Shown here in pieces: positions 1,292 to 18,332 of a DNA stretch of 21,771 bases. The stretch is taken from positions 1 to 21,771 of the IMG/VR virus record IMGVR_UViG_3300028581_003380, one strand, 5' to 3'. Below the pieces are notes generated by a model that did not search any database, was not told where the DNA came from, and was given only the letters and a program-made list of their open reading frames with translations. The position numbers and the translations under genes are program-made. The first letter of the stretch is position 1, and every line of letters begins with the position of its first letter. The DNA comes from a virus.

Positions 1292-1295
1292 TAAA

Positions 1296-1321
1296 AAAGA
1301 CCCGCGACTAAGTGGGTCTTT
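1296..1321 (+). terminator. Intrinsic terminator after the two small genes
   Basis: AAAGACCC at 1296-1303 pairs with GGGTCTTT at 1314-1321; the stem extends by a G-T and a C-G pair around a GACTAA loop. An A-run precedes it and a T-rich tail follows, so it could work in both directions. It separates the small genes from the terminase operon. Confidence 0.8.
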
Positions 1322-1365
1322 CTTATCCAAAACAAATTAATTATAGCACATAATGGTAAAAAAAT

Positions 1366-1394
1366 TTGCATCATACCTTATGGGGTGTTATCAT
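1366..1394 (+). promoter_or_regulatory. Sigma70-like extended -10 promoter for terminase genes
   Basis: TTGCAT (1366-1371), a 17-base spacer and TATCAT (1389-1394), with the extended -10 dinucleotide TG at 1386-1387. The hexamer ends six bases before the ATG at 1401, so transcription is predicted to start on the A of the start codon and give a leaderless mRNA. It sits just after the terminator at 1296-1321, as expected for a new operon. Confidence 0.6.
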
Positions 1395-1400
1395 TTAAAT

Positions 1401-1892
1401 ATGAAAAGACCTAAGAATGGATCAACACCTCAACAGTACGCTTATGCAACTCGATTGTTAGGAGGACAAGGTACTACAAAAAAAGAAATAGCTCTGCTTG
1501 TTGGATATCCTCCATCGATAGCGAATAATGCTTCAAATAAAATTGAGAAGACGGAAGGATTTCAGAATGCAGTTTTAAAACTTGCAACTGAAAGTAATAA
1601 CATGGTACTTGCTATTATGGCTGAGTATAAGGCCAGGGGTTTTAAAAAGTTTTCGAACAAAGATTTAAATGCTGCTTTGAATGCTACTTCTCAGGCATGG
1701 GATAGATTTAACAAACAAAGGGCTCCGGACCAAAATAGGACCCCAGAGGGGAACCCGCTCCGAAAGGTTATAATGCAAAAAATTGAAAATCAAACTATTA
1801 ATAATATCTCTACTCCAAAAGAAGCTGAGGTTGTTGAACCTGAGATAGAGGAGGAGGAAAGTGAGGAGGAGGATATTGATTTAGATTTTTAA
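1401..1892 (+). CDS. Terminase small subunit (TerS)
   Basis: Predicted DNA-recognition subunit of the packaging motor, 163 aa. Residues about 8-60 (TPQQYAYATRLLGG..TKKEIALLVGY) form a helix-turn-helix typical of TerS proteins, followed by a helical region suited to ring assembly and a strongly acidic tail (EEEESEEEDIDLDF). The gene directly precedes the large terminase, four bases away. An upstream ATG at 1353 would add 16 residues, but those codons overlap the promoter; the ATG at 1401 has the AATATG context seen at other starts and fits a leaderless transcript, so I chose it. It would bind the packaging site, perhaps in the repeat cluster at the left. The identification rests on the HTH, size and position. 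Confidence 0.8.
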   Translation: MKRPKNGSTPQQYAYATRLLGGQGTTKKEIALLVGYPPSIANNASNKIEKTEGFQNAVLKLATESNNMVLAIMAEYKARGFKKFSNKDLNAALNATSQAWDRFNKQRAPDQNRTPEGNPLRKVIMQKIENQTINNISTPKEAEVVEPEIEEEESEEEDIDLDF

Positions 1893-1895
1893 TAT

Positions 1896-3629
1896 ATGTC
1901 AAATTTCCAATATCAAAAAGAGCACAATGATCGGATAGTCAAAGAGCTCACGGAGAATCCGGATCTTATTGATGATAAGTTGTGGAGAATGACTAATTTA
2001 TATTGGCTCATTACGAAGGATGGAACCAAGGAGGTTTTTAGTATGAACCGGGCGCAGAAGCATTTTTTTGATAATTATTTAAATCCCAATGATCCACTAA
2101 AAAAATATCATAGGCATATTATACTTAAGAGTCGTCAGTTGGGATTCACTACTTTTATTGACTTGTATATTCTGGATGAGATTCTTTTTAATACGAACAG
2201 AGAGGGTTTGATTGTGGCCCATAAGGTTGAAGATGCGAAAGAGATCTTCGATCGTAAGATTGATTTTGCTATTAGAAATATGGCGAATGAAGTTAAGGGG
2301 GCGTTTTTTAAATTACAGAGAAATTCTGCGAAGAAGATTCAGGTTGTTGTTGATTACGGCCCGGAGGCTGGATCTACAAGTTCTATTCAGGTTTCAACAT
2401 CAGGACGATCTGGAACATTTTTCTATGTGCATATTTCTGAGTTTGCAAAAATGTGTGTGATGTACCCAAAGAATGCAGCGGAAGTTGAGACTGGAACATT
2501 TCCAGCTGTTCCTTTTGATGGATTTATTTTTATTGAGAGTACTGCGGAAGGTATGGCCGGGAGATTCTTTGAGATCTTCCAGGATAATTGGCCTGTTAGA
2601 GATACGATATCTCCGATGAAGTCGAGAGTTATTTTCTTACCTCATTTTTATAACTGGCAGTATGACGATATGGAAATGAAAAAGATTACGGAGAATATTC
2701 CAGTGTCTCAGATGGAGATTGGAGAAATCGATTTTGCTGAGTATCAGAAGGAGCACAATCTTACAGACAAAGAAATTACTTATTATTATATGAAGTATTT
2801 ACAGTGTGGAGGTAAAGGTGGTACTGACACTGTAAATAAATTACATCAAGAATATCCAACTACACCAGAGGAGGCCTTTCTTTCTACCGGGCAAACTTAC
2901 TTCCCAACCTCGAAGGTATTTTCAATGATCCAAACTGCAAAGCATGGGACAAGAGGAGAATTGATTACAAATGAAAAGGGAGAAGTTACTTTTCAACCAC
3001 TATCAACTGGGAGGTTGGAAGTTTTTAATTTACCAGAAATAGGAACTAGGTATATTATTGGAGGAGATACTGCGGAGGGATTAGCTCATGGGGATAAACA
3101 GGTCCTATATGTTATCAATCACAAGACTGAGAATTGTGATGCAGTTTATACTTCGAATGTTCCACCTGATGAATTTATTAATGATGCTTATAGTGTGGGA
3201 AAATTTTTTAACTGGGGATTACTTGGAATTGAATCGAACAAGGATGGTCTATGGGTAAATGATGGATTGGATAAATTGGGATATTTAAATCTTTATTATC
3301 GAAAAATATTTGATGATATTACAAAAAATATTACTAAGTTTTTTGGATGGAAAACCACAAGTGCCACGAGACCATTTTGTCTTGCTGCGCTCAAAGCTGT
3401 ATTTTTGAGAAAAACTGATGGGTTCCCATTGTCTATGTTGAGTGAGATGGTTACTTTTATTAGGAATACAAAAGGGAGGCCAGAAGCCCTAGCCGGAAAG
3501 AATGACGATGTGGTCATGGCGGGAGCTATTGGATATGCTATTTTACAGGAACAAGGGAAGTGGGTCGACACAACCTCGAATGCGGAAGGCTTTTCTATGG
3601 GGAAGGCATTATTTGGAGAGGAACAATAA
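1896..3629 (+). CDS. Terminase large subunit (TerL), ATPase and nuclease
   Basis: The DNA-packaging motor protein, 577 aa, full length for the family. The N-terminal ATPase has a Walker A-like LKSRQLGFTT at about 77-86, a Walker B-like YVHISEFA with glutamate near 182, and a coupling motif IESTAEG near 213-219. The C-terminal RNase H-like nuclease shows GGDTAEG with aspartate near 391, GIESN with glutamate near 446, and NDDVVMA with aspartates near 537-538. All essential residues of both activities appear present. It would translocate DNA into the procapsid through the portal and cut it. It follows TerS by three bases in an AATATATG context, without a Shine-Dalgarno sequence. Confidence 0.96.
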   Translation: MSNFQYQKEHNDRIVKELTENPDLIDDKLWRMTNLYWLITKDGTKEVFSMNRAQKHFFDNYLNPNDPLKKYHRHIILKSRQLGFTTFIDLYILDEILFNTNREGLIVAHKVEDAKEIFDRKIDFAIRNMANEVKGAFFKLQRNSAKKIQVVVDYGPEAGSTSSIQVSTSGRSGTFFYVHISEFAKMCVMYPKNAAEVETGTFPAVPFDGFIFIESTAEGMAGRFFEIFQDNWPVRDTISPMKSRVIFLPHFYNWQYDDMEMKKITENIPVSQMEIGEIDFAEYQKEHNLTDKEITYYYMKYLQCGGKGGTDTVNKLHQEYPTTPEEAFLSTGQTYFPTSKVFSMIQTAKHGTRGELITNEKGEVTFQPLSTGRLEVFNLPEIGTRYIIGGDTAEGLAHGDKQVLYVINHKTENCDAVYTSNVPPDEFINDAYSVGKFFNWGLLGIESNKDGLWVNDGLDKLGYLNLYYRKIFDDITKNITKFFGWKTTSATRPFCLAALKAVFLRKTDGFPLSMLSEMVTFIRNTKGRPEALAGKNDDVVMAGAIGYAILQEQGKWVDTTSNAEGFSMGKALFGEEQ

Positions 3630-3832: not shown

Positions 3833-3861
3833 TTGCATTCTTAATTAATAGGTACTACAAT
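3833..3861 (+). promoter_or_regulatory. Sigma70-like promoter for the portal gene
   Basis: TTGCAT (3833-3838), 17 bases, TACAAT (3856-3861). The ATG at 3870 lies eight bases beyond, giving a predicted leader of at most a few bases. The -35 area AATACTTGCATT (3828-3839) matches the promoter at 7406-7417 in 11 of 12 bases. Confidence 0.65.
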
Positions 3862-3869
3862 TATATTAT

Positions 3870-6074
3870 ATGGAAACAACTAAGGACACAAAAGTTTCAA
3901 AAACAGTTGATAAGGACAAGGAGACGATTAAATTTATCACTGACAAGAAGCAAAAGATAAAAGAATCACAGTATCGTGTTCGTTTTGATGCCCTCGCAGA
4001 TGAAATAGACCAAAATATTATAAATACTAGTGTTTCTTATGGAGAGAAGCTCTATGAGAAGTCGGGTTGGGGTTCAATGGTCTTTTACAATAAGATGGCA
4101 AATGGCGCTTATGATATTAATGTTTACCCTACTAAAATTACAGATCGAGATAAGAATAAATCCGGAGTTCCTGCATCTCAAGAGCCTATTGCTCTATCAA
4201 AAATTTTAATTGCTACCAGTGTTTTAGCTGGAAAATTACCAGATTCTCAAGTTATAGCTGACGACAAAATATATGCTAAGGCTATTTATGAATTATGGAA
4301 AAGAAGTTGGTATTTGAAGGGAGCAAATGGAGAGAATACACTCTCTTTGACATACCAGAATTTATTTACATACGGATGGGCCGCTTGGAGAGTTTATCCT
4401 AAGCGTGTTTCAGTAAAAAGGAGAGGAGTCGATAAGATTCTTTTTGATGATGTTTATCGAGAACCAATGGATCCGAAAAGAACATGGCTTGGAATTGGTT
4501 TTACAAATGGAGACTACTGGTCTCAATTTGAAGTTTATTACGAGAAGGATATGTTGAAGGAAGAATTTTTTGAAAAATATCCAGAAGCTAAAAATAATAA
4601 AAGAAAATTAGATTACTTATCTACGACAACTGAAGCTAAAGACGAAGATCAGGGTAAGGCACAACAAAGTGTTACTCTTGGATATTATGAAAATGTATTA
4701 TTGAATAGATATATTGTTGTTTGTGGAAAAATGGTTATTTATGATGGAGAGATGCCTAACGATGAAAGTTTTGGTTCTGTTGTTGTTGCAAGATGTTTTG
4801 CTAAAAATTTAAATGATCCTTATGGAGTTGGTTTGTATGAAATGATGAGAGGAAATACTGCATTGTTTACATATATTAATTCTTTGAATGCTCAACAAGT
4901 GGAAGCAGAAATCTTTCCACTTCTTTTTGGGCCACAGGTTCAAAATGGAACTGCTACATATAAGAGATCTCCAAATGTTATAAATCCAAAAAGTCCTGGG
5001 TCTACTATTGATGTTGTAAAAACAAACGGAAATGTTCAACAGGGAATTCAATTTGCTGATAAACAAAAAGTGGCAATTGAAGAAAATACTGGAGTTAACA
5101 ATATTGTAGCCGGACAAAATGCTGAGAGTACTCTTGGTTCTACCGTCATTTTGAAAGAAGCTGCATATAATAGATTGACTCCTCCAAAAAATTCGATGAT
5201 GAATGGACTTCAAACAGATGCGCATATTGCGTGTAGTTGGATGAGGCAAACATATCCAGTTGATAAAGTATTTATGATTGATTCAGATGAGGCCTTAGCT
5301 GAATTTACAAAACAAAATCCAGACTACTTTATTGAATCACAAGAAATCATTGGAGACGATGGTGTTCCCAAAGGACATGCTGTTGTTGCTTCAAGAAACC
5401 TTAGATTAAATTTTGATTTTACTGCTGAAGGTGAAATGATGGAAGATGTCCCAACTAGAACTGTTTCTGCTAAAAAATTATTTGATGAGCTGGAAACCCA
5501 TGGACATATTTCTGATTATTATGAATTTATAATTGATCCAGATTCAATGTTATTGCCATCTCTTGAGATTCAAAAACAAACATTCATGGCAATGTTTCCT
5601 ACAATTACCAATCAAATTAATTTAATATTCCAATTAAGGAGATCTGATCCAGAGGCCGCAGCGGCTCAATTAAAATCATTTGAACAATTCTTAACGATTC
5701 AAAAACAAAATATTTTTGATTACATTCCTAAGAAGCAATATGATCAAATTATGGCAATGAAACCATCTGAAATTGTAATTCCACAAGGACCAGAAAAAAC
5801 TCCAGAAGAAACATTAAACTATAAAGATGCTCCAGCTGATGTTCAAAGACAAATCGAAGAAAGAGCTGGATTAACTCCTTCCGGTGGAAATAATATTTCA
5901 CCTCAAATTCCAGGAACTGTTCCAGCACCAAAAAATACTCCAGGAGTTTCAAGTGATAATACTGGAGCTGCGAAAGGAGCTAATCAAGTCCCAAGGCCTC
6001 AGTCACCTATGGGATCAGCCGTTGATGCAAGTGTTGGGAGAGCGGCTAATTTACCATTTTTCCCAGGAGCATAA
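3870..6074 (+). CDS. Portal protein
   Basis: Forms the dodecameric ring at one capsid vertex through which DNA is packaged and ejected. At 734 aa it has the size of podovirus portals. The stretch around residues 314-340 (LNDPYGVGLYEMMRG, then INSLNAQQVEA) matches the pattern of portal stem and clip regions, and the alternating helical and strand layout before it fits the wing. The last roughly 90 residues are low-complexity, rich in Pro, Gly, Ala and Gln (PGTVPAPKNTPG, PRPQSPMGS), typical of disordered portal tails that contact DNA or scaffold. It follows the terminase genes and precedes the scaffold and capsid genes. It has its own promoter. The exact portal subfamily is not assigned. Confidence 0.9.
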   Translation: METTKDTKVSKTVDKDKETIKFITDKKQKIKESQYRVRFDALADEIDQNIINTSVSYGEKLYEKSGWGSMVFYNKMANGAYDINVYPTKITDRDKNKSGVPASQEPIALSKILIATSVLAGKLPDSQVIADDKIYAKAIYELWKRSWYLKGANGENTLSLTYQNLFTYGWAAWRVYPKRVSVKRRGVDKILFDDVYREPMDPKRTWLGIGFTNGDYWSQFEVYYEKDMLKEEFFEKYPEAKNNKRKLDYLSTTTEAKDEDQGKAQQSVTLGYYENVLLNRYIVVCGKMVIYDGEMPNDESFGSVVVARCFAKNLNDPYGVGLYEMMRGNTALFTYINSLNAQQVEAEIFPLLFGPQVQNGTATYKRSPNVINPKSPGSTIDVVKTNGNVQQGIQFADKQKVAIEENTGVNNIVAGQNAESTLGSTVILKEAAYNRLTPPKNSMMNGLQTDAHIACSWMRQTYPVDKVFMIDSDEALAEFTKQNPDYFIESQEIIGDDGVPKGHAVVASRNLRLNFDFTAEGEMMEDVPTRTVSAKKLFDELETHGHISDYYEFIIDPDSMLLPSLEIQKQTFMAMFPTITNQINLIFQLRRSDPEAAAAQLKSFEQFLTIQKQNIFDYIPKKQYDQIMAMKPSEIVIPQGPEKTPEETLNYKDAPADVQRQIEERAGLTPSGGNNISPQIPGTVPAPKNTPGVSSDNTGAAKGANQVPRPQSPMGSAVDASVGRAANLPFFPGA

Positions 6075-6831: not shown

Positions 6832-7407
6832 ATGGCAGAGACCAAGTTTGATAAATTAAAAGCAGAAGCAACGAAGTTGGGTATTCCTTTCAAGGAAGAT
6901 GTTTTGGAAGATGATTTAATTAAAACTATTAAAGATAAAAAAGATGCGATCGCTGAGGAGAATCGTATAAAAAAAGAAGAAGAAAAAAAGGCTGAAGATG
7001 AAAAAAAGAAAAATAAAATTATCCTCAAAGATGTCTTTGGTGAAGATGTTAGTGAAGACAATTATTTTTACAAAAAGACAGACACGAATGGAAAAATAAT
7101 TGGAGGAGCACCTTCATATTTTAATAAAGTATGTGGATTACCTGTAGATCGTGAAGAATTGATTACTGTTTTTAATAGAATATTTGATCCTAAGCATGGA
7201 TTTTTATTTTACAAAACAAGAGACACAGAAATTTATATTATTATTGTTCCGTTGAAACATTCTGACTCTGTTGGAACATCAAATGATTCACAGCCAGGTG
7301 ATTTTCAGAAACATGCAATTTCGTTTATTAATGAAGGATCTGTAAATTTGGATTCTTTGAAATTAAAATTAACAAAAGTTGCCAGCACGATAAAAATAAA
7401 AGATTAA
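6832..7407 (+). CDS. Hypothetical protein with SAP-like N-terminus and charged helix (191 aa)
   Basis: Residues about 1-33 (KFDKLKAEATKLGIPFKE..LEDDLIKTIKDK) resemble the helix-loop-helix of SAP or HeH domains, which bind nucleic acid or act as small adaptors. A lysine/glutamate helix follows (residues about 34-62), probably a coiled coil. The C-terminal half is a mixed strand/helix domain with IYIIIVPLKHSD as a core strand. The gene starts in an AATATATG context and ends shortly before the scaffold promoter. It might be a minor head or packaging component; the family is not recognised. Confidence 0.7.
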   Translation: MAETKFDKLKAEATKLGIPFKEDVLEDDLIKTIKDKKDAIAEENRIKKEEEKKAEDEKKKNKIILKDVFGEDVSEDNYFYKKTDTNGKIIGGAPSYFNKVCGLPVDREELITVFNRIFDPKHGFLFYKTRDTEIYIIIVPLKHSDSVGTSNDSQPGDFQKHAISFINEGSVNLDSLKLKLTKVASTIKIKD

Positions 7408-7410
7408 TAC

Positions 7411-7439
7411 TTGCGTTATGAAAAGTATAGTATTATAAT
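7411..7439 (+). promoter_or_regulatory. Sigma70-like promoter for the scaffold/capsid genes
   Basis: TTGCGT (7411-7416), a 17-base spacer and a perfect TATAAT (7434-7439). It is the strongest -10 element in the window, as fits highly expressed capsid genes. Transcription would begin near 7446, leaving a leader of about 44 bases before the ATG at 7490. Confidence 0.75.
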
Positions 7440-7457
7440 TAATAGTAATAGCCATCG

Positions 7458-7482
7458 TCCCTTACGAACGATATCGTACGGA
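7458..7482 (+). promoter_or_regulatory. Structured leader of the scaffold mRNA
   Basis: TACGA (7463-7467) pairs with TCGTA (7474-7478) around ACGATA, and TCC (7458-7460) pairs with GGA (7480-7482). The core is also a 10-base palindrome, ACGATATCGT (7468-7477). The fold ends seven bases before the ATG and could affect mRNA stability or translation. Folding is by eye. Confidence 0.45.
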
Positions 7483-7489
7483 TAACTAT

Positions 7490-8398
7490 ATGGACCAAGA
7501 TAAAAAAGTAGTAGTGCCCGCAGTTGATGATGAATCAGCTCTCGATGCAGAGCTTGAAGCATCCATCAATGAAGTTAAAGCTGGAAAAGAGTTACCACCT
7601 GTGGTAACCAACCCTGAAAAAAAAGAAGATGGACCAACCGGACAATCCGGAGACTCAGATTCTAAAAAAAAGGTGGAGGATCCCAGCAAGCCTCCAGTTG
7701 CTGAAAAGAAGGAAGAAGATTACGAATTTCGTATACCAAACAAAGGTAAATTTGAATCTGACGAATCTTATGAGCTAAGAATTAGTTTATTAGATTTAGT
7801 TAAGAGACGAAAAGCGGCAACTACTCCAGAAGCGAAAGCAGCGTTATCGGAAGAAATTTCAAAGGCTAAAGGTCAACTTAAGAATTTGAATGGATCCGAT
7901 AAAATTAATAACCTTAATTCTGTAGTAGAAAAGAAGGTTGATGAAGATCCAGCTTTAAAAGCGGACCGAGATCGATTAAAAGAACTTGGAGGCGCAACTA
8001 AGGAGGATATTCAGGAGGTAATCCGTCAAGAGCGATTGGTTCAAGAAACAAAAAGTACCTTAGAAAGTTTTGTGGCAAGGCATCCTGAATTAAAGGATGA
8101 AGATGTGCGAGAAGTTTTCTTTGATTTCGTAGATTCAAATTATAATTGGACTGGGAAATCTGGAAAAGAACTCATGACAGTCCTCGAGCTCGCTCGAGAG
8201 AATATGTTCAAGCCATCCGAAACAATTCAAGAGAGAGTACTTAAAGGAGCCAATGTTCAGGAAAAAATCAATGCTGTTCAGTTCCCTGGTGGAACTGGAG
8301 CAAAAACGGATTTTTCTCCAGAAATGCGTAAGTCAATTGATGAACTTAAAGCAACTGGAATGTCTGAGGAAAAGGCAATAGAGCTATTATCTGATTAA
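7490..8398 (+). CDS. Capsid scaffolding protein
   Basis: Predicted internal scaffold that guides procapsid assembly and leaves before or during packaging. At 302 aa it is highly charged and mostly helical. The N-terminal 80 residues are acidic and disordered (AVDDESALDAELEAS, then Pro/Lys-rich), a coiled coil spans the middle (ISLLDLVKRRKAA to LKNLNG), and the tail contains short helices ending in ATGMSEEKAIELLSD, similar in kind to capsid-binding tails of other scaffolds. No protease motif is seen. Its place directly before the decoration and capsid genes is the usual one for scaffold. It has a strong promoter. The call rests on composition and synteny. Confidence 0.78.
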   Translation: MDQDKKVVVPAVDDESALDAELEASINEVKAGKELPPVVTNPEKKEDGPTGQSGDSDSKKKVEDPSKPPVAEKKEEDYEFRIPNKGKFESDESYELRISLLDLVKRRKAATTPEAKAALSEEISKAKGQLKNLNGSDKINNLNSVVEKKVDEDPALKADRDRLKELGGATKEDIQEVIRQERLVQETKSTLESFVARHPELKDEDVREVFFDFVDSNYNWTGKSGKELMTVLELARENMFKPSETIQERVLKGANVQEKINAVQFPGGTGAKTDFSPEMRKSIDELKATGMSEEKAIELLSD

Positions 8399-8881: not shown

Positions 8882-9919
8882 ATGACAGGTACAATTAATG
8901 ATTATGCGGTTATCGTAAACAATGTGTTAAAACATGTTGCACCAAAAGTGGCCGCTAATGTTAAACCAGAATACCTAGATTTCATGCACAAAGTTGAAAG
9001 CAGTGAAAGAATTTATTCTGATGTTGGTGTTACTGGGCTAGGAATGGGTGAAATCATTCCAGATGGAGGAGTTGGTAGTTCTGATGCTCCTATCCAAGGT
9101 TACTCAAAGAACTATACGCAAATGCACTTTACCAAAAAGGTTCGTTTGACATTCCAGTCAAACTTCTTCCTCTTTGAGGGGGCAGCTGCAAAGATCAAGG
9201 GAACAGTTAAGTCAAAAGTTCTTGAAGGTAAAAATGCTATCGAGCATGCCAAGAACTATCTTGCTCAATGTCTCTTGAGTCAAGGTTTCGGTACTTCATT
9301 CACATGGGTACCTATTAATAATGTTGGAACACCAACTGTCATCTCCACATTAGGTGCTGATGCAGCTGCGTACTGGGATGCAACACACCCTCGTGAAGAT
9401 GGTGGTGCAGCTTGGTCCAATGTTATCGTGGATGTCGTTCCTTCACCTCAATTTACTTATTCTTCTCTCTTGGCTGCTCGCAGACAACAGAGTTTGAAAA
9501 AGGATGGGCGTGGAAATCCTTTAATGTCGATGCTTGATACTCTTGTTTGTCGTGCTGGTTCTTCAACCGCACAGTTTGCAAAGACAATCAAAGGTACAAT
9601 CGACAAGGGATTGGCACCTCAACAGACAAACCTCTTTAATAACGCTCCAGCTACAGATACTTTCAGTATCGTTGAGCTTTCAGCTTATGAAAATCTTGGT
9701 TTGGATGGATTAATGTGGGGAATGTTTGATTCCAAGCTAAAGAATGCTGATTACGGATTCCTTTATATCGAAGCATTGCCAACTCGTGCAGAGCCAGCAG
9801 TCATCGATCTATTGGGTAACCAAGATCTTGTTCTTAACTTCAATTCTCTTTGTCAACTAGGCGCTTCTGACTTGAGAGGATGGATGTGGAGCGATGGCGA
9901 TGGAAGTACCGCAGGTTAG
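8882..9919 (+). CDS. Major capsid protein
   Basis: A 345-aa protein in the standard position after scaffold and decoration genes. The N-terminus is short and helical (YAVIVNNVLKHVAPKVAA), followed by an extended loop and strand region, a long helix (KVLEGKNAIEHAKNYLAQCLL), a central part (FTYSSLLAARRQQSLKKDGRG, then LMSMLDTLVCR) and a C-terminal strand region (FLYIEALPTRAEPAVIDLLG). This layout fits HK97-fold capsid proteins such as those of podoviruses. No cleavable delta domain is evident. Codons are more C/G-ending (CTC, ATC, GTC, TTC) than in neighbours, as expected for the most expressed gene. The gene ends with TAG. Confidence 0.88.
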   Translation: MTGTINDYAVIVNNVLKHVAPKVAANVKPEYLDFMHKVESSERIYSDVGVTGLGMGEIIPDGGVGSSDAPIQGYSKNYTQMHFTKKVRLTFQSNFFLFEGAAAKIKGTVKSKVLEGKNAIEHAKNYLAQCLLSQGFGTSFTWVPINNVGTPTVISTLGADAAAYWDATHPREDGGAAWSNVIVDVVPSPQFTYSSLLAARRQQSLKKDGRGNPLMSMLDTLVCRAGSSTAQFAKTIKGTIDKGLAPQQTNLFNNAPATDTFSIVELSAYENLGLDGLMWGMFDSKLKNADYGFLYIEALPTRAEPAVIDLLGNQDLVLNFNSLCQLGASDLRGWMWSDGDGSTAG

Positions 9920-9943
9920 AGCTTTTGTCAAGTTTATCTATCT

Positions 9944-9966
9944 CCATTAGTATGATATACTAATGG
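9944..9966. other. Perfect hairpin just before the HNH gene
   Basis: CCATTAGTAT (9944-9953) and ATACTAATGG (9957-9966) are perfect 10-base complements around GAT, one base before the ATG at 9968. It is A/T-rich with no T-run, so it is not a clear terminator. It overlaps the predicted promoter and would be at the left junction if the HNH gene was inserted. Confidence 0.75.
9953..9961 (+). promoter_or_regulatory. Candidate extended -10 for the HNH gene
   Basis: TGA-TATACT (TG at 9953-9954, hexamer 9956-9961) ends six bases before the ATG, the same spacing as at 1401 and 16531, and predicts a leaderless transcript. TTGTCA at 9925-9930 is 25 bases away, too far for a normal -35. It lies within the 3' half of the hairpin. 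Confidence 0.35.
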
Positions 9967-9967
9967 A

Positions 9968-10555
9968 ATGGATAAACAGAAACAAAAAGTTTGCTTAGAG
10001 TGTAAAAAGATCTTTGAAAGAAAAATAGATTGTAGTAATCCAAATTGGGTTTTAAAAAAATATTGTTCTCGTTTGTGTCAATATGATGCAATGAGACACA
10101 ATAATAAAGGGATTTGTTCAAATACTGGACGGACCCATTTTAAGAAAGGAATTTCTGGTTCGCCAAGTACTCAATTCAAAAAGGGTAATAAACCTTGGCA
10201 TGCTGGTAAATCAAATCCTTACTTTGTTGGGCCCCATAATCCTAAATGGAAAGGAGGAATATATCCTGAACATCTTAAAATAAGACATTCTGTAGAAATG
10301 AAACGATGGAGATTAAAGATCTTTAATCATGATAATTATGCTTGTGTTTTATGTTCTCGAAAGAGAATAAAAGGTGATCGAGTTATTCTTCATGCTGACC
10401 ATTATCCAAAAACATTTGCAGTTCTTCTAAAAAAATTGAAATTAGACACTTTTGAAAAAGCAAAGAAATCTAAAAAGTTTTGGGATATAAAATTAGGAAG
10501 AACTTTGTGTCGTGAGTGTCATTTAAAAACTGATACTCATGGTAAAAATCTTTAG
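9968..10555 (+). CDS. Free-standing HNH homing endonuclease
   Basis: A 195-aa protein with an N-terminal zinc-binding motif (CLECKKIF...YCSRLCQYD, residues about 9-43), a middle part with repeated HFKKG/QFKKGNKPW segments like the NUMOD3 DNA-binding repeats, and a C-terminal HNH domain. The HNH core has CVLC near 119-122, HADHYPKT near 136-143 and LCRECHLKTDTHG near the end, so the metal-binding cysteines and catalytic histidines appear present. It is not part of the virion and interrupts the capsid module between the capsid gene and the next structural gene, typical of mobile homing endonucleases. It could also act as a stand-alone nicking enzyme. The base composition is more AT-rich than the capsid gene. 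Confidence 0.9.
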   Translation: MDKQKQKVCLECKKIFERKIDCSNPNWVLKKYCSRLCQYDAMRHNNKGICSNTGRTHFKKGISGSPSTQFKKGNKPWHAGKSNPYFVGPHNPKWKGGIYPEHLKIRHSVEMKRWRLKIFNHDNYACVLCSRKRIKGDRVILHADHYPKTFAVLLKKLKLDTFEKAKKSKKFWDIKLGRTLCRECHLKTDTHGKNL

Positions 10556-15226: not shown

Positions 15227-16228
15227 ATGGAAAACGAAAAAGACGATTTTATAGCAAATTTAGATAGTGTCATAGAAGACCCTAGATCTGTAGAGGAAAA
15301 GGAACGAGACTATAAAACATCGGATATAACTCCTGGAGCTATTGAAGATGAGTTAGTCTGGTTAGATGAATCAGAAGTTGAACAAATATCTTACACTCCA
15401 CGAGACCAGGCTTTTTCACTTTCTTGTATGGCTCAAGCGGCTGCAAAGGGATATGAAATTATTAATAAAATAAAAAATGCTATTGTAGAAATATTCTCAG
15501 CTCACCCTCCATATAGATCTCGCTCTAATTATCCTGAAGGAGGAATGTGGTTACAAGATCTATTTAACCAAATGAAAAATGTTGGTACAAACTACGAAAG
15601 TGTAGATGTATCGCAAAATATTGGTGAGACGGAAATGAATCGTGATGTTACATGTGAAACACCATTTAAAATAGGAGGTTACGGATTCCCTGATGTTAGA
15701 AATGATATCGATGATATTGCCAAAGCAATAAAAAAGTATGGCCATTGTCAGATTGTAATTCATGCAAACAAAAAAGAATATACCAAACCAATTCCAGAAT
15801 ACTTAGGATTAATGGTAGATTTTGGTCATGGAATAGAGGGTATTCAATTTTTTAAAAAAGATGGAGTTAAGGTAATTAAAATTGAGGATTCTACCGGTCA
15901 TTCTTCTACTGCCGATAAAAAAGGTACCCGTTACCTTACAGAAGATTTTTTAAGAAAGCGATGTTCTGATAGTGGTTACATGTTGATAGATCCACCTCAA
16001 TATATTTTTAAGACTTTAATGAGACAAGGATTTATTAGTGCTGAAATAAAAGAATTACAGAAAAGATTAAATAAAGAAGGAATGGCCATAGAGAAACTTA
16101 TTATCGATGGAAATTTTGGAAAAAGAACAAAGAGTGCTGTTATAAATTATCAGAAGAATCATTCGCTTGTAGCTGATGGAATTGTCGGTCCAAAGACTCG
16201 AGCTGTATTAAATTTATCAGTTAATTAA
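15227..16228 (+). CDS. Endolysin: papain-like cysteine peptidase with peptidoglycan-binding domain
   Basis: A 333-aa two-domain lysis enzyme. Residues 1-50 are acidic and disordered. A peptidase domain spans about 55-265: FSLSCMAQAAAKGYE holds a candidate nucleophile Cys67, GHGIEGIQFF the candidate His201, and KIEDSTGH the candidate Asp221, an order that fits papain-like (C1-type) folds. Residues about 277-331 are a PG_binding_1 domain (IKELQKRLNKEG, DGNFGKRTKSAV, VADGIVGPKTRAVL). It would cut peptide cross-links in the cell wall. No signal peptide is present, so it needs the holin encoded next. Most endolysins are amidases or lysozymes; a cysteine-peptidase type is less common. An alternative is a virion-associated protease. 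Confidence 0.8.
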   Translation: MENEKDDFIANLDSVIEDPRSVEEKERDYKTSDITPGAIEDELVWLDESEVEQISYTPRDQAFSLSCMAQAAAKGYEIINKIKNAIVEIFSAHPPYRSRSNYPEGGMWLQDLFNQMKNVGTNYESVDVSQNIGETEMNRDVTCETPFKIGGYGFPDVRNDIDDIAKAIKKYGHCQIVIHANKKEYTKPIPEYLGLMVDFGHGIEGIQFFKKDGVKVIKIEDSTGHSSTADKKGTRYLTEDFLRKRCSDSGYMLIDPPQYIFKTLMRQGFISAEIKELQKRLNKEGMAIEKLIIDGNFGKRTKSAVINYQKNHSLVADGIVGPKTRAVLNLSVN

Positions 16229-16236
16229 TAATTATT

Positions 16237-16512
16237 ATGAAGAACGGACTATTTAAACTAGAGTGGGCTAATATTAAAAGTGCAATCGTTTATGGTTTAC
16301 TTACTGCTTTATTGGTTTTTATCCTTTCTGTTTTGGAGGGAATAAAAGATCATGGAAGTATTCTTGGTGTTGATTGGAAGAATGTTATCGACACTGGAAT
16401 CATTGCTACAATAGGATTGGTAATTTCAATTGTTTCAATTGTTAAAAATTTACTAACCACTAACCAAGGGAAGTTCCTTGGAATTACCACAGTTATTCCA
16501 AATAAAGAATAA
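16237..16512 (+). CDS. Holin
   Basis: 91 aa with two membrane helices, at about residues 14-36 (AIVYGLLTALLVFILSVL) and 52-71 (GIIATIGLVISIVSIVKN), a lysine-rich start and a polar tail. This is the topology of small class II-type holins, and the gene lies eight bases after the endolysin gene. It would form lesions in the inner membrane at lysis time and release the endolysin. Its start has no Shine-Dalgarno sequence. Confidence 0.8.
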   Translation: MKNGLFKLEWANIKSAIVYGLLTALLVFILSVLEGIKDHGSILGVDWKNVIDTGIIATIGLVISIVSIVKNLLTTNQGKFLGITTVIPNKE

Positions 16513-16515
16513 TGG

Positions 16516-16524
16516 TGGTACAAT
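16516..16524 (+). promoter_or_regulatory. Extended -10 promoter for the tail genes
   Basis: TGG-TACAAT (TG at 16516-16517, hexamer 16519-16524) ends six bases before the ATG at 16531, predicting a leaderless mRNA. The matching -35 position (16496-16501, TTCCAA) is weak, as allowed for extended -10 promoters. Confidence 0.5.
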
Positions 16525-16530
16525 AAATAT

Positions 16531-17916
16531 ATGTTTCCACAAATCTTAATCAAGCATAATATAGGAAATACTATTGAGATACCAAATCAATTGGATGTCA
16601 AGACTTTTTCTTACATTTCAACTAATTTAGCAATTGGGGTTACAGCAATTCCTGTTGATAATGCAATAGATTTTACTGCTGGATCAATATTACTTTTACT
16701 CTCATCTTTGGGTGCAGAAAATTCGGAATTTGTGGCTATATCTTCTCACACAAATCAATCATTTGTTTCTGCGGCTACAAAAATGCCACACAATAGAGGT
16801 GACCTTGTTCAGGAAGTTAGATTTGATCAGATTGTAATTACAAAATCTGCAACGATAGATGGAGTTTACTCAACATTTGCAACAATAACTTTGCAGACAA
16901 CTCAACAAAAAACTATCGCATTCGATCCAACTGGATTGAGTACTGATTACTATAAAGTTCAATGGAAGAATTCTCAGACATCAGATCTTTCTAGTTTTTC
17001 TACACCGATAAGTGTCTTGTCTTATCCAACGAATTCAGCGGCAAAATTAATTCTTCCAGTATTAACTTCTATGGGTATTTCAGAAAATGACACAAGAATA
17101 ACTATGCCATTTTGTTTAAGCGCAATTGATGATGCTAGAAAATATACTGATTCGAAACTCTATGGAATAAGACATGCTTGGAGACAAAATTTTGAGTATC
17201 CAATCAAAGTTTTAGCTGGAAGTAATTACATCGATCTACCAGATGACATTGATTTCAACGAAACAGATAGATCTTTATTGGCAGCTAGATTTATGTCTCC
17301 AGGAATACTTTCACCTTTTAATTTACACTATGTAGATAAAAGAGATTGGAATAGAATTTCTTACTCAATGATGGGTGGTGACAATCAAACATTAGCTGGA
17401 ATAGGAGCAACAGAATTAACCCTCGATAGTGTTGGAGATTTTCCAGATGTTTCAACTGGAGTTGCCTATGTGGCCACAACAGATTACGACCAAACAATAA
17501 TGCAGATTGAATATACAGGAGTAAATCTTTTGACAAATAAATTAACCGGAGTTACTGGAATTACCAGAGCGATACCAGCGGGAACACGGGTATGGTCGAA
17601 CCCCACAATCTCTCAGCCAATTGCATACACTGTGTTTGAAAATAGGCTGTATTTTGATCGGATAATTCCAGATTCAATGCAAGGAAATAATCTTTACATT
17701 GATTATTATAAAAAATTAGAAGAAGTTACAAATTTGTACCAAGAAATCACTGAAAACTATAGAGAAATCTATAAATGGTATTTAAAATATGCGATTAAAT
17801 ATCGTAAGGATATAAATATCGGGAGTGATGATCCTGATTTAAAGAAATTTGAAGGATTAGTTACTGATCTTTTCAATAATCTTTATACAGGACAGGATAC
17901 AATTATTATAACTTAA
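16531..17916 (+). CDS. Head-tail adaptor-like tail protein (461 aa)
   Basis: Likely the ring protein joining portal and tail nozzle. Residues about 185-225 form helices ([19 protein letters not shown]) followed by a strand and loop ([15 protein letters not shown]); the C-terminus is helical ([19 protein letters not shown], then [13 protein letters not shown]). These features resemble adaptors of podoviruses, where helices contact the portal. The N-terminal 180 residues are extra: a beta-rich domain ([33 protein letters not shown]), then a fibronectin-III-like stretch ([20 protein letters not shown]). The family is usually much smaller, so this looks like a fusion with surface domains. It could instead be a minor tail protein. 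The next gene is collagen-like. Confidence 0.65.
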
Positions 17917-17926
17917 AATTAAATTT

Positions 17927-18295
17927 ATGGGATATACACAACCAAGAATTTCAAGAATGAATATTCTGCAAGCTGATCCAGTTTCACAATTGGTTCTTCA
18001 GGCATCAATAGACACAGCCGCAGCAGTTCCAGATGGAGCTACTTATGCTGGAATCTTTGAGCCGTTTGCAAGTCTAATCATCGTAGCCGGCACAGCAGCT
18101 GGAAATTATGTGAACAGTGGGACAACCGCAGTTCCAGAATGGACAGCATCTGTTGTTGGAGTCACTGGAGCAGTCGGTCCAACTGGAGCAGAAGGTCCTA
18201 CAGGTCCTACAGGTCCAGAAGAAACTGGCCCTACTGGAGCTACAGGAGCAACTGGTCCTACAGGTCCAACTGGTCCTACCGGAGCTACAGCTTAG
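17927..18295 (+). CDS. Short collagen-like protein (122 aa)
   Basis: Residues 1-80 are a small Ala/Val-rich domain ([39 protein letters not shown]), and residues about 80-121 are Gly-X-Y repeats of GPT, GAE and GAT type. The repeat is broken once by GPEETGPTG, which inserts two residues and shifts the triplet register. The gene sits between adaptor and nozzle genes, so the protein may decorate the tail or serve as a fibre stub. It ends with TAG and is followed by a strong hairpin. A short domain plus collagen tail could trimerise and be replaced or extended easily. Confidence 0.75.
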
Positions 18296-18299
18296 TCTT

Positions 18300-18332
18300 C
18301 TTACTCACCCCATTTATGTGGGGTGAGATAAG
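18300..18332 (+). terminator. Strong hairpin after the short collagen-like gene
   Basis: CTCACCCCA (18304-18312) pairs perfectly with TGGGGTGAG (18319-18327) around TTTATG; CTTA (18300-18303) pairs with TAAG (18329-18332) with A18328 bulged, for a 13-pair stem. No T-run follows, so it may be an attenuator, an mRNA-stabilising structure or a Rho-assisted terminator instead of a simple intrinsic terminator. Confidence 0.6.

Follow-up and report, generated by a model that had tools for sequence, protein, structure and literature searches.

Predicted leaderless or nearly leaderless transcription of the small terminase gene in an uncultured phage family with few Shine-Dalgarno sequences

Genes and promoter sites in the window

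The stretch of DNA analyzed here (the window) comprises the 21,771 bases of an IMG/VR virus record that is classed as linear and may be a fragment; its GC content is 30-44%. The features considered below, all on the plus strand, were as follows.

1293..1324, +: terminator-like hairpin, AAAGACCC...GGGTCTTT followed by TCTT, read from the sequence
1366..1394, +: sigma70-type promoter of terS, TTGCAT (1366-1371)-N17-TATCAT (1389-1394)-N6-ATG 1401, with a TG extension at 1386-1387, read from the sequence; score 9.6, gap 6
1401..1892, +: terS, small terminase subunit, named by its position before terL; the start codon is the predicted +1
1896..3629, +: terL, large terminase subunit (phrog_2, E=2.7e-25), 3 nt after terS and without a leaderless promoter
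3833..3861, +: portal promoter, TTGCAT (3833-3838)-N17-TACAAT (3856-3861)-N8-ATG 3870; predicted leader of about 2 nt
3870..6074, +: portal protein (phrog_156, E=3.9e-6)
6832..7407, +: 191 aa protein, whose orthologue in relatives is preceded by a copy of the leader element
7411..7439, +: promoter of gene 7490, TTGCGT-N17-TATAAT
7452..7483, +: leader RNA element, CCAUCG and then a covarying hairpin with the loop ACGAUA(C); match to covariance model R1 at 7434-7492, 40.2 bits
7490..8398, +: scaffold-like protein (inferred), charged and all-helical, with a disordered N-terminus and a C-terminal helix pair
8882..9919, +: probable major capsid protein
9933..9976, +: inverted repeat containing the promoter of gene 9968 and also spanning the ATG, TGATATACT-N6-ATG; the extended -10 is TG-A-TATACT (9956-9961)-N6-ATG 9968
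9968..10555, +: free-standing HNH endonuclease gene (phrog_589, E=2.7e-8)
16496..16524, +: promoter of gene 16531, TTCCAA-N17-TACAAT (16519-16524) with a TG extension (TG-G-TACAAT), six bases before ATG 16531
16531..17916, +: 461 aa protein, without a family match

The name of the probable major capsid protein is based solely on where its gene lies and on how well it is conserved, with 62-90% identity to relatives; it had no PHROG or PDB match and no match among cultured phages, and its AlphaFold model was poor. We also noted a strong GC-rich hairpin, CTCACCCC...GGGGTGAG, at about 18300-18326 between the genes at 17927 and 18347, with about 20 bases between its end and the ATG of the latter.

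The initial annotation had described a -10 separated from the ATG by exactly six bases at 1401, 9968, and 16531 and by eight at 3870, and all four arrangements are present in the sequence. Searching the whole record for TGNTANNNT-N6-ATG returned exactly four matches on the plus strand (1386, 9953, 16516, and 15813) and none on the minus strand. The match at 15813 lies within a gene, while the other three lie at the gene starts 1401, 9968, and 16531. Accounting for spacing, TGN-TANNNT ended six bases before the ATG at 3 of the 24 gene starts of the window, and it occurred at none of these starts at any other spacing from 0 to 39. The promoters of 9968 and 16531 have a weak -35. At terS, the site has the layout of a sigma70-type extended -10 promoter (TTGNNN, a 16-18 bp spacer, and TGN-TANNNT), with the TG absent in some orthologues. 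Two marks of TA-led leaderless genes in bacteria were found as well: TANNNT was placed non-randomly about 10-12 bp 5′ of the start codon, and the gene was not preceded by a Shine-Dalgarno (SD) sequence.

The terS promoter and translation starts across the family

To gather relatives, we scanned with the large terminase protein and the portal protein and obtained about 140 IMG/VR loci, including one in a MAG. The group has no close cultured member; the terminase matched cultured phages only at <60% identity, with a best match of about 32%. Since 104 relatives align from the terS N-terminus, the position of the start codon is fixed across the family. The terS upstream set comprised 63 non-redundant upstream regions, and promoters were compared over 62 orthologues using a sigma70-type consensus, with the promoter and translation rules of the host assumed. 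The best promoter within 150 nt was located at a gap of 5 to 10 nt from the ATG in 52 of the 62 orthologues, compared to 3.2 in shuffles; since only upstream identity was used to remove redundant orthologues, these are not fully independent. The median promoter score was 10.5, compared to 5.7, and most orthologues had a TTGAC-type -35 box and a spacer of 16-18 bp. About a sixth had no clear promoter here (e.g., L021, L027, L035, L067, and L133). No excess of promoters at a gap of 5 to 10 was observed for the orthologues of the downstream operon genes terL, 6317, 8428, 10657, and 10993, which thus serve as a negative control for terS within the same genomes. In the window, the terminator-like hairpin at 1293-1324 lies directly 5′ of the terS promoter. 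This is consistent with a new transcription unit and with the late operon being separated from the genes before it.

Other sequence words were also seen upstream of terS. The word TAGCACCYAARCTTTGACA is conserved in about 20 relatives (e.g., L044, L063, and L129), either overlapping or just 5′ of the -35, and within the spacer in L121, L039, and L102; it is a candidate operator or terminase-binding site. A cluster of GGGGCA / TGCCCC words, with 13 copies, occupies 13-480 of the window and is possibly an operator, origin, or packaging site. Relatives carry different short repeats upstream of terS, such as TGTCCC in L121 and L039 and GTGCCTG in L024.

SD sequences were absent, as first proposed. 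At positions -17 to -5, an SD 4-mer was found in 0 of the 19 window genes of at least 100 aa and in 7.8% of the family starts, compared to 10% in the control (not enriched), whereas the same measure gave 38-46% in other viral loci and 34% in the MAG. Moreover, U directly preceded the AUG at 72% of the family starts, compared to 30% in other viral loci, possibly because initiator tRNA pairs over a longer stretch or because the host follows a rule of its own. Operon-internal starts lack an SD; the sequence 5′ of them is A/U-rich, with a U immediately before the AUG.

We consider it very likely that the sites are real sigma70 promoters, and that terS and a few other genes are carried on leaderless or nearly leaderless mRNA in an SD-poor host. 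On sequence evidence, the proposed leaderless or near-leaderless transcription of the terminase is backed for terS in particular. The alternative that fares best, although we regard it as unlikely, is that the promoters are real but give short leaders of a few nucleotides, or that the start codon is elsewhere, so that the transcripts would not be strictly leaderless. The gap was 6 in 30 terS orthologues, 7 in 9, 8 in 10, and 9 in 3; gaps of 7 to 9 in 22 of the 62, together with the gap of 8 at the portal, predict leaders of 1 to 3 nt, but 6 was the commonest value and the N-termini align at the chosen ATG. RNA polymerase may also start 1 to 3 nt either way, so that a leaderless transcript is indistinguishable from one with a leader of this length. 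A leader of at most 3 nt is too short for an SD site, and translation would therefore work in the same way.

A second alternative is chance: AT-rich upstream regions hold TATAAT-like words at many spacings, from which fitting ones would have been picked. The low GC content of the window gives this some room, and loose TANNNT words 6 to 8 bases before the ATG were only marginally in excess there (6 observed, 2.8 expected, P=0.05), so that the claim depends on the TG extension of the -10, on the spacing of exactly six, and on conservation across the family. For the extended motif, shuffled upstream regions contained a mean of 0.035 cases at spacing 6, against the 3 observed, and 0 of 4000 shuffles reached 3; the spacing is thus not as frequent in shuffled AT-rich sequence. 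Family-wide, the spacing-6 motif was found at 33 of 1446 non-identical called starts, compared to about 2 per other position. This count is conservative, since greedy start calling loses some true sites (the start at 1401 of the window was first called as 1353). A scan without start calling gave 35 non-redundant cases at spacing 6 and 1-20 at other spacings (mostly <12, but 17 and 20 at spacings 4 and 7, respectively), while a reversed-motif control was flat across spacings. With a peak at a single position, and with 52 of the 62 terS promoters conserved together with -35 boxes, chance is refuted for terS and very improbable as an account of the sites as a whole. Equally implausible is the view that the TATAAT-like sequence is not a promoter and instead serves translation, as an A/U-rich, S1-binding, or unstructured signal: operon-internal genes do share A/U-rich upstream regions and U at -1, but in the terS upstream regions the -10 has an extended TG and is preceded at 16-18 bp by a TTGACA-type box, neither of which the internal genes have.

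Portal, HNH, and scaffold-like genes

Beyond terS, the leaderless reading seems reasonable for 9968, 16531, and the portals of close relatives, while for terS itself it is well supported by the upstream comparison. At the portal gene, the near-leaderless arrangement noted initially holds in the window, but not family-wide: the best promoter lay at a gap of 5 to 10 in 10 of 40 orthologues, mainly in close relatives. For 16531, the arrangement was found in only one close relative (L006/L085), and family searches with its protein gave no match. The initial statement that terminase and tail genes are included accordingly stands for terS, while a tail gene is unproven.

Gene 9968, initially listed among the leaderless starts, keeps its spacing-6 promoter, which was also found in 4 of 7 orthologues, and is corrected to an HNH endonuclease gene. 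Its predicted folds differ markedly, with -25.9 kcal/mol for read-through RNA, in which the AUG is inside a long hairpin, compared to -1.7 for RNA with the leaderless 5′ end. The -10 is inside an inverted repeat also in L049, L143, and L068. In the predicted folds of the window, L143, and L068, the AUG is sequestered, the promoter is in the hairpin, and the promoter-made RNA is unstructured, as in the T4 I-TevI type of control; in L049, by exception, the predicted hairpin abuts the AUG and does not cover it. Read-through RNA would hide the 9968 AUG in the hairpin, and promoter-initiated RNA would lack the 5′ arm. These folds thus predict that a leaderless start frees the AUG from a trapping hairpin in a T4 I-TevI-like manner.

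The exception to the leaderless pattern is gene 7490, a late gene with a predicted leader of about 45 nt, whose promoter is present at 52 of 52 family copies. The leader contains an element with the consensus CCAUCG...CCNNNC-ACGAUAC-GNNNGG, its hairpin ending about 8-12 nt before the AUG. A covariance model detected 104 element copies in 66 loci and none in 34 unrelated sources. The hairpin had 103 two-sided changes in an alignment (A3) fitted to its structure; shuffles gave 35, none of the 500 reached the observed count, and covariation fell in a sliding control. An unfitted MAFFT alignment (A2) agreed, with 53 changes compared to 18 over both helices, nearly all of the 53 in the hairpin. The helix of a putative H-type pseudoknot in the 7490 leader, AUCG/CGAU, was nearly invariant and without compensatory change. 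Rfam gave no match at gathering score in the window, and only chance-level matches near the 7490 leader. The covarying hairpin is therefore, as judged from alignments, a concrete candidate for a new RNA, absent from Rfam.

In many relatives, a second copy of the element precedes the 6832 orthologue (e.g., L139 4637-4690 and L024 15217-15270), while the window has no second copy before 6832. A promoter accompanied the element in 2 of 36 cases before 6832, compared to 52 of 52 before 7490. Since the element before 6832 is mostly without a promoter, it probably acts as RNA, and its reading as a DNA operator is disfavoured. The composition, position, and helical model of the 7490 protein suggest that it is scaffold-like; no significant sequence or fold match to a known scaffold was found. 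Our preferred guess is that the scaffold-like protein autoregulates through the leader element. Autoregulation of the P22 scaffold is a parallel for a structured leader of a scaffold-like gene. Alternatively, the element may recruit ribosomes independently of SD.

Host, proposed mechanism, and known systems

One candidate host was suggested by a Dehalococcoidia MAG, whose contig L144 carries a relative. However, ten contigs of this MAG showed 34% SD and 36% U at -1, compared to 8% and 72%, respectively, in the phages, and the motif was found 56 times compared to 41 in the control, no clear excess. Given that SD usage in the MAG is normal, unlike in the phages, Dehalococcoidia are probably not the host, and L144 was probably mis-binned. 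A literature search found nothing linking Patescibacteria to these phages. As a further host clue, tRNA genes were sought in the related IMG/VR records, and none were found except that of L142. The 23 window genes ended in TAA (19), TAG (4), and TGA (0). Reassignment of TGA was ruled out, since TGA is used in the family, though rarely, as the stop of 51 of 758 genes, and conserved genes are open in the standard code.

From the promoter elements, their exact spacing, their conservation, and the absence of SD sequences, all directly observed, we infer the start of transcription, the route of initiation, and an SD-poor host. Transcription from a host-type (sigma70) promoter would begin at the AUG or within about three nucleotides of it, so that terS and a few other genes would be on leaderless or nearly leaderless mRNA, initiated by a 70S or an SD-independent 30S route. 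The host would not use SD pairing, which would fit the operon-internal genes described above. Taken further, and tentatively, as a possibility to which we give somewhat less than even chances, this may be a widespread phage family without SD initiation and with three modes of start: leaderless at the head of the packaging operon, U-before-AUG inside operons, and a new conserved hairpin element acting on the scaffold-like gene and the gene next to it, either as a control or by recruiting ribosomes.

The leaderless late-promoter pattern in this uncultured group looks real and conserved in the sequences compared. Leaderless phage mRNAs have mostly been discussed through single cases, e.g., lambda cI, while here the pattern concerns the main late promoter of a family. 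The combined signature of a leaderless late promoter and rare SD sequences could point to hosts with SD-independent translation, and the defined promoters are offered for the study of leaderless late-gene translation. Gene finders that expect SD sites or leaders may misplace such starts.

That the pattern is unusual for a phage, as first suggested, is doubtful. Among the IMG/VR matches listed, a consensus promoter followed by an ATG at 6, 10, 14, or 28 bases opened an ORF of at least 60 aa in 58%, 29%, 15%, and 66% of cases, respectively. This two-peaked pattern (6 and 28 bases) suggests that leaderless genes may be a normal minority class in phages, SD-using ones included. In L149-L268, which are unrelated SD-using phages, an ATG located exactly six bases 3′ of a consensus promoter is often the start of a gene. 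Among 67 proteins of this kind from the matches listed, the HNH and endonuclease VII families appear repeatedly.

The 7490 element resembles the P22 scaffold system and the T4 gene 32 and gene 43 operators in having a structured leader near a start, here that of a scaffold-like gene. The T4 operators are structured leaders near phage start codons (PMC3014915); compared to them, the 7490 element has another sequence and structure and stands before two adjacent genes in relatives. In T4 gene e and I-TevI, a hairpin in read-through RNA controls the start (PMC3014915). As far as folding predicts, 9968 is alike, with read-through RNA hiding the start and a promoter in the 5′ arm giving RNA without the hairpin, but it differs in that its promoter has a host-type extended -10, where T4 has a late promoter, and in its predicted leaderless mRNA. 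It is also a free-standing HNH gene, and the likeness to I-TevI is not extended to intron location. Lambda cI is a leaderless phage mRNA transcribed from its AUG (PMC3160421, PMC9031893), and the genes described here are likewise predicted to be transcribed from their own AUG. However, cI encodes a lysogeny repressor in an SD-using host, whereas the genes concerned here, in SD-less genomes, are the first of the late packaging operon and one for an endonuclease. Finally, leaderless bacterial genes can be recognized by a TANNNT located about 10-12 bp 5′ of their start (Actinobacteria and Deinococcus-Thermus; Zheng et al. 2011, PMC3160421). The phages share with these TA-led genes a TANNNT-type -10 at about -12, the lack of an SD, and a predicted 5′ end at the AUG, and differ from them in being a tailed-phage family with full TTGACA -35 boxes, AT-rich sequence, and almost no SD in any gene.
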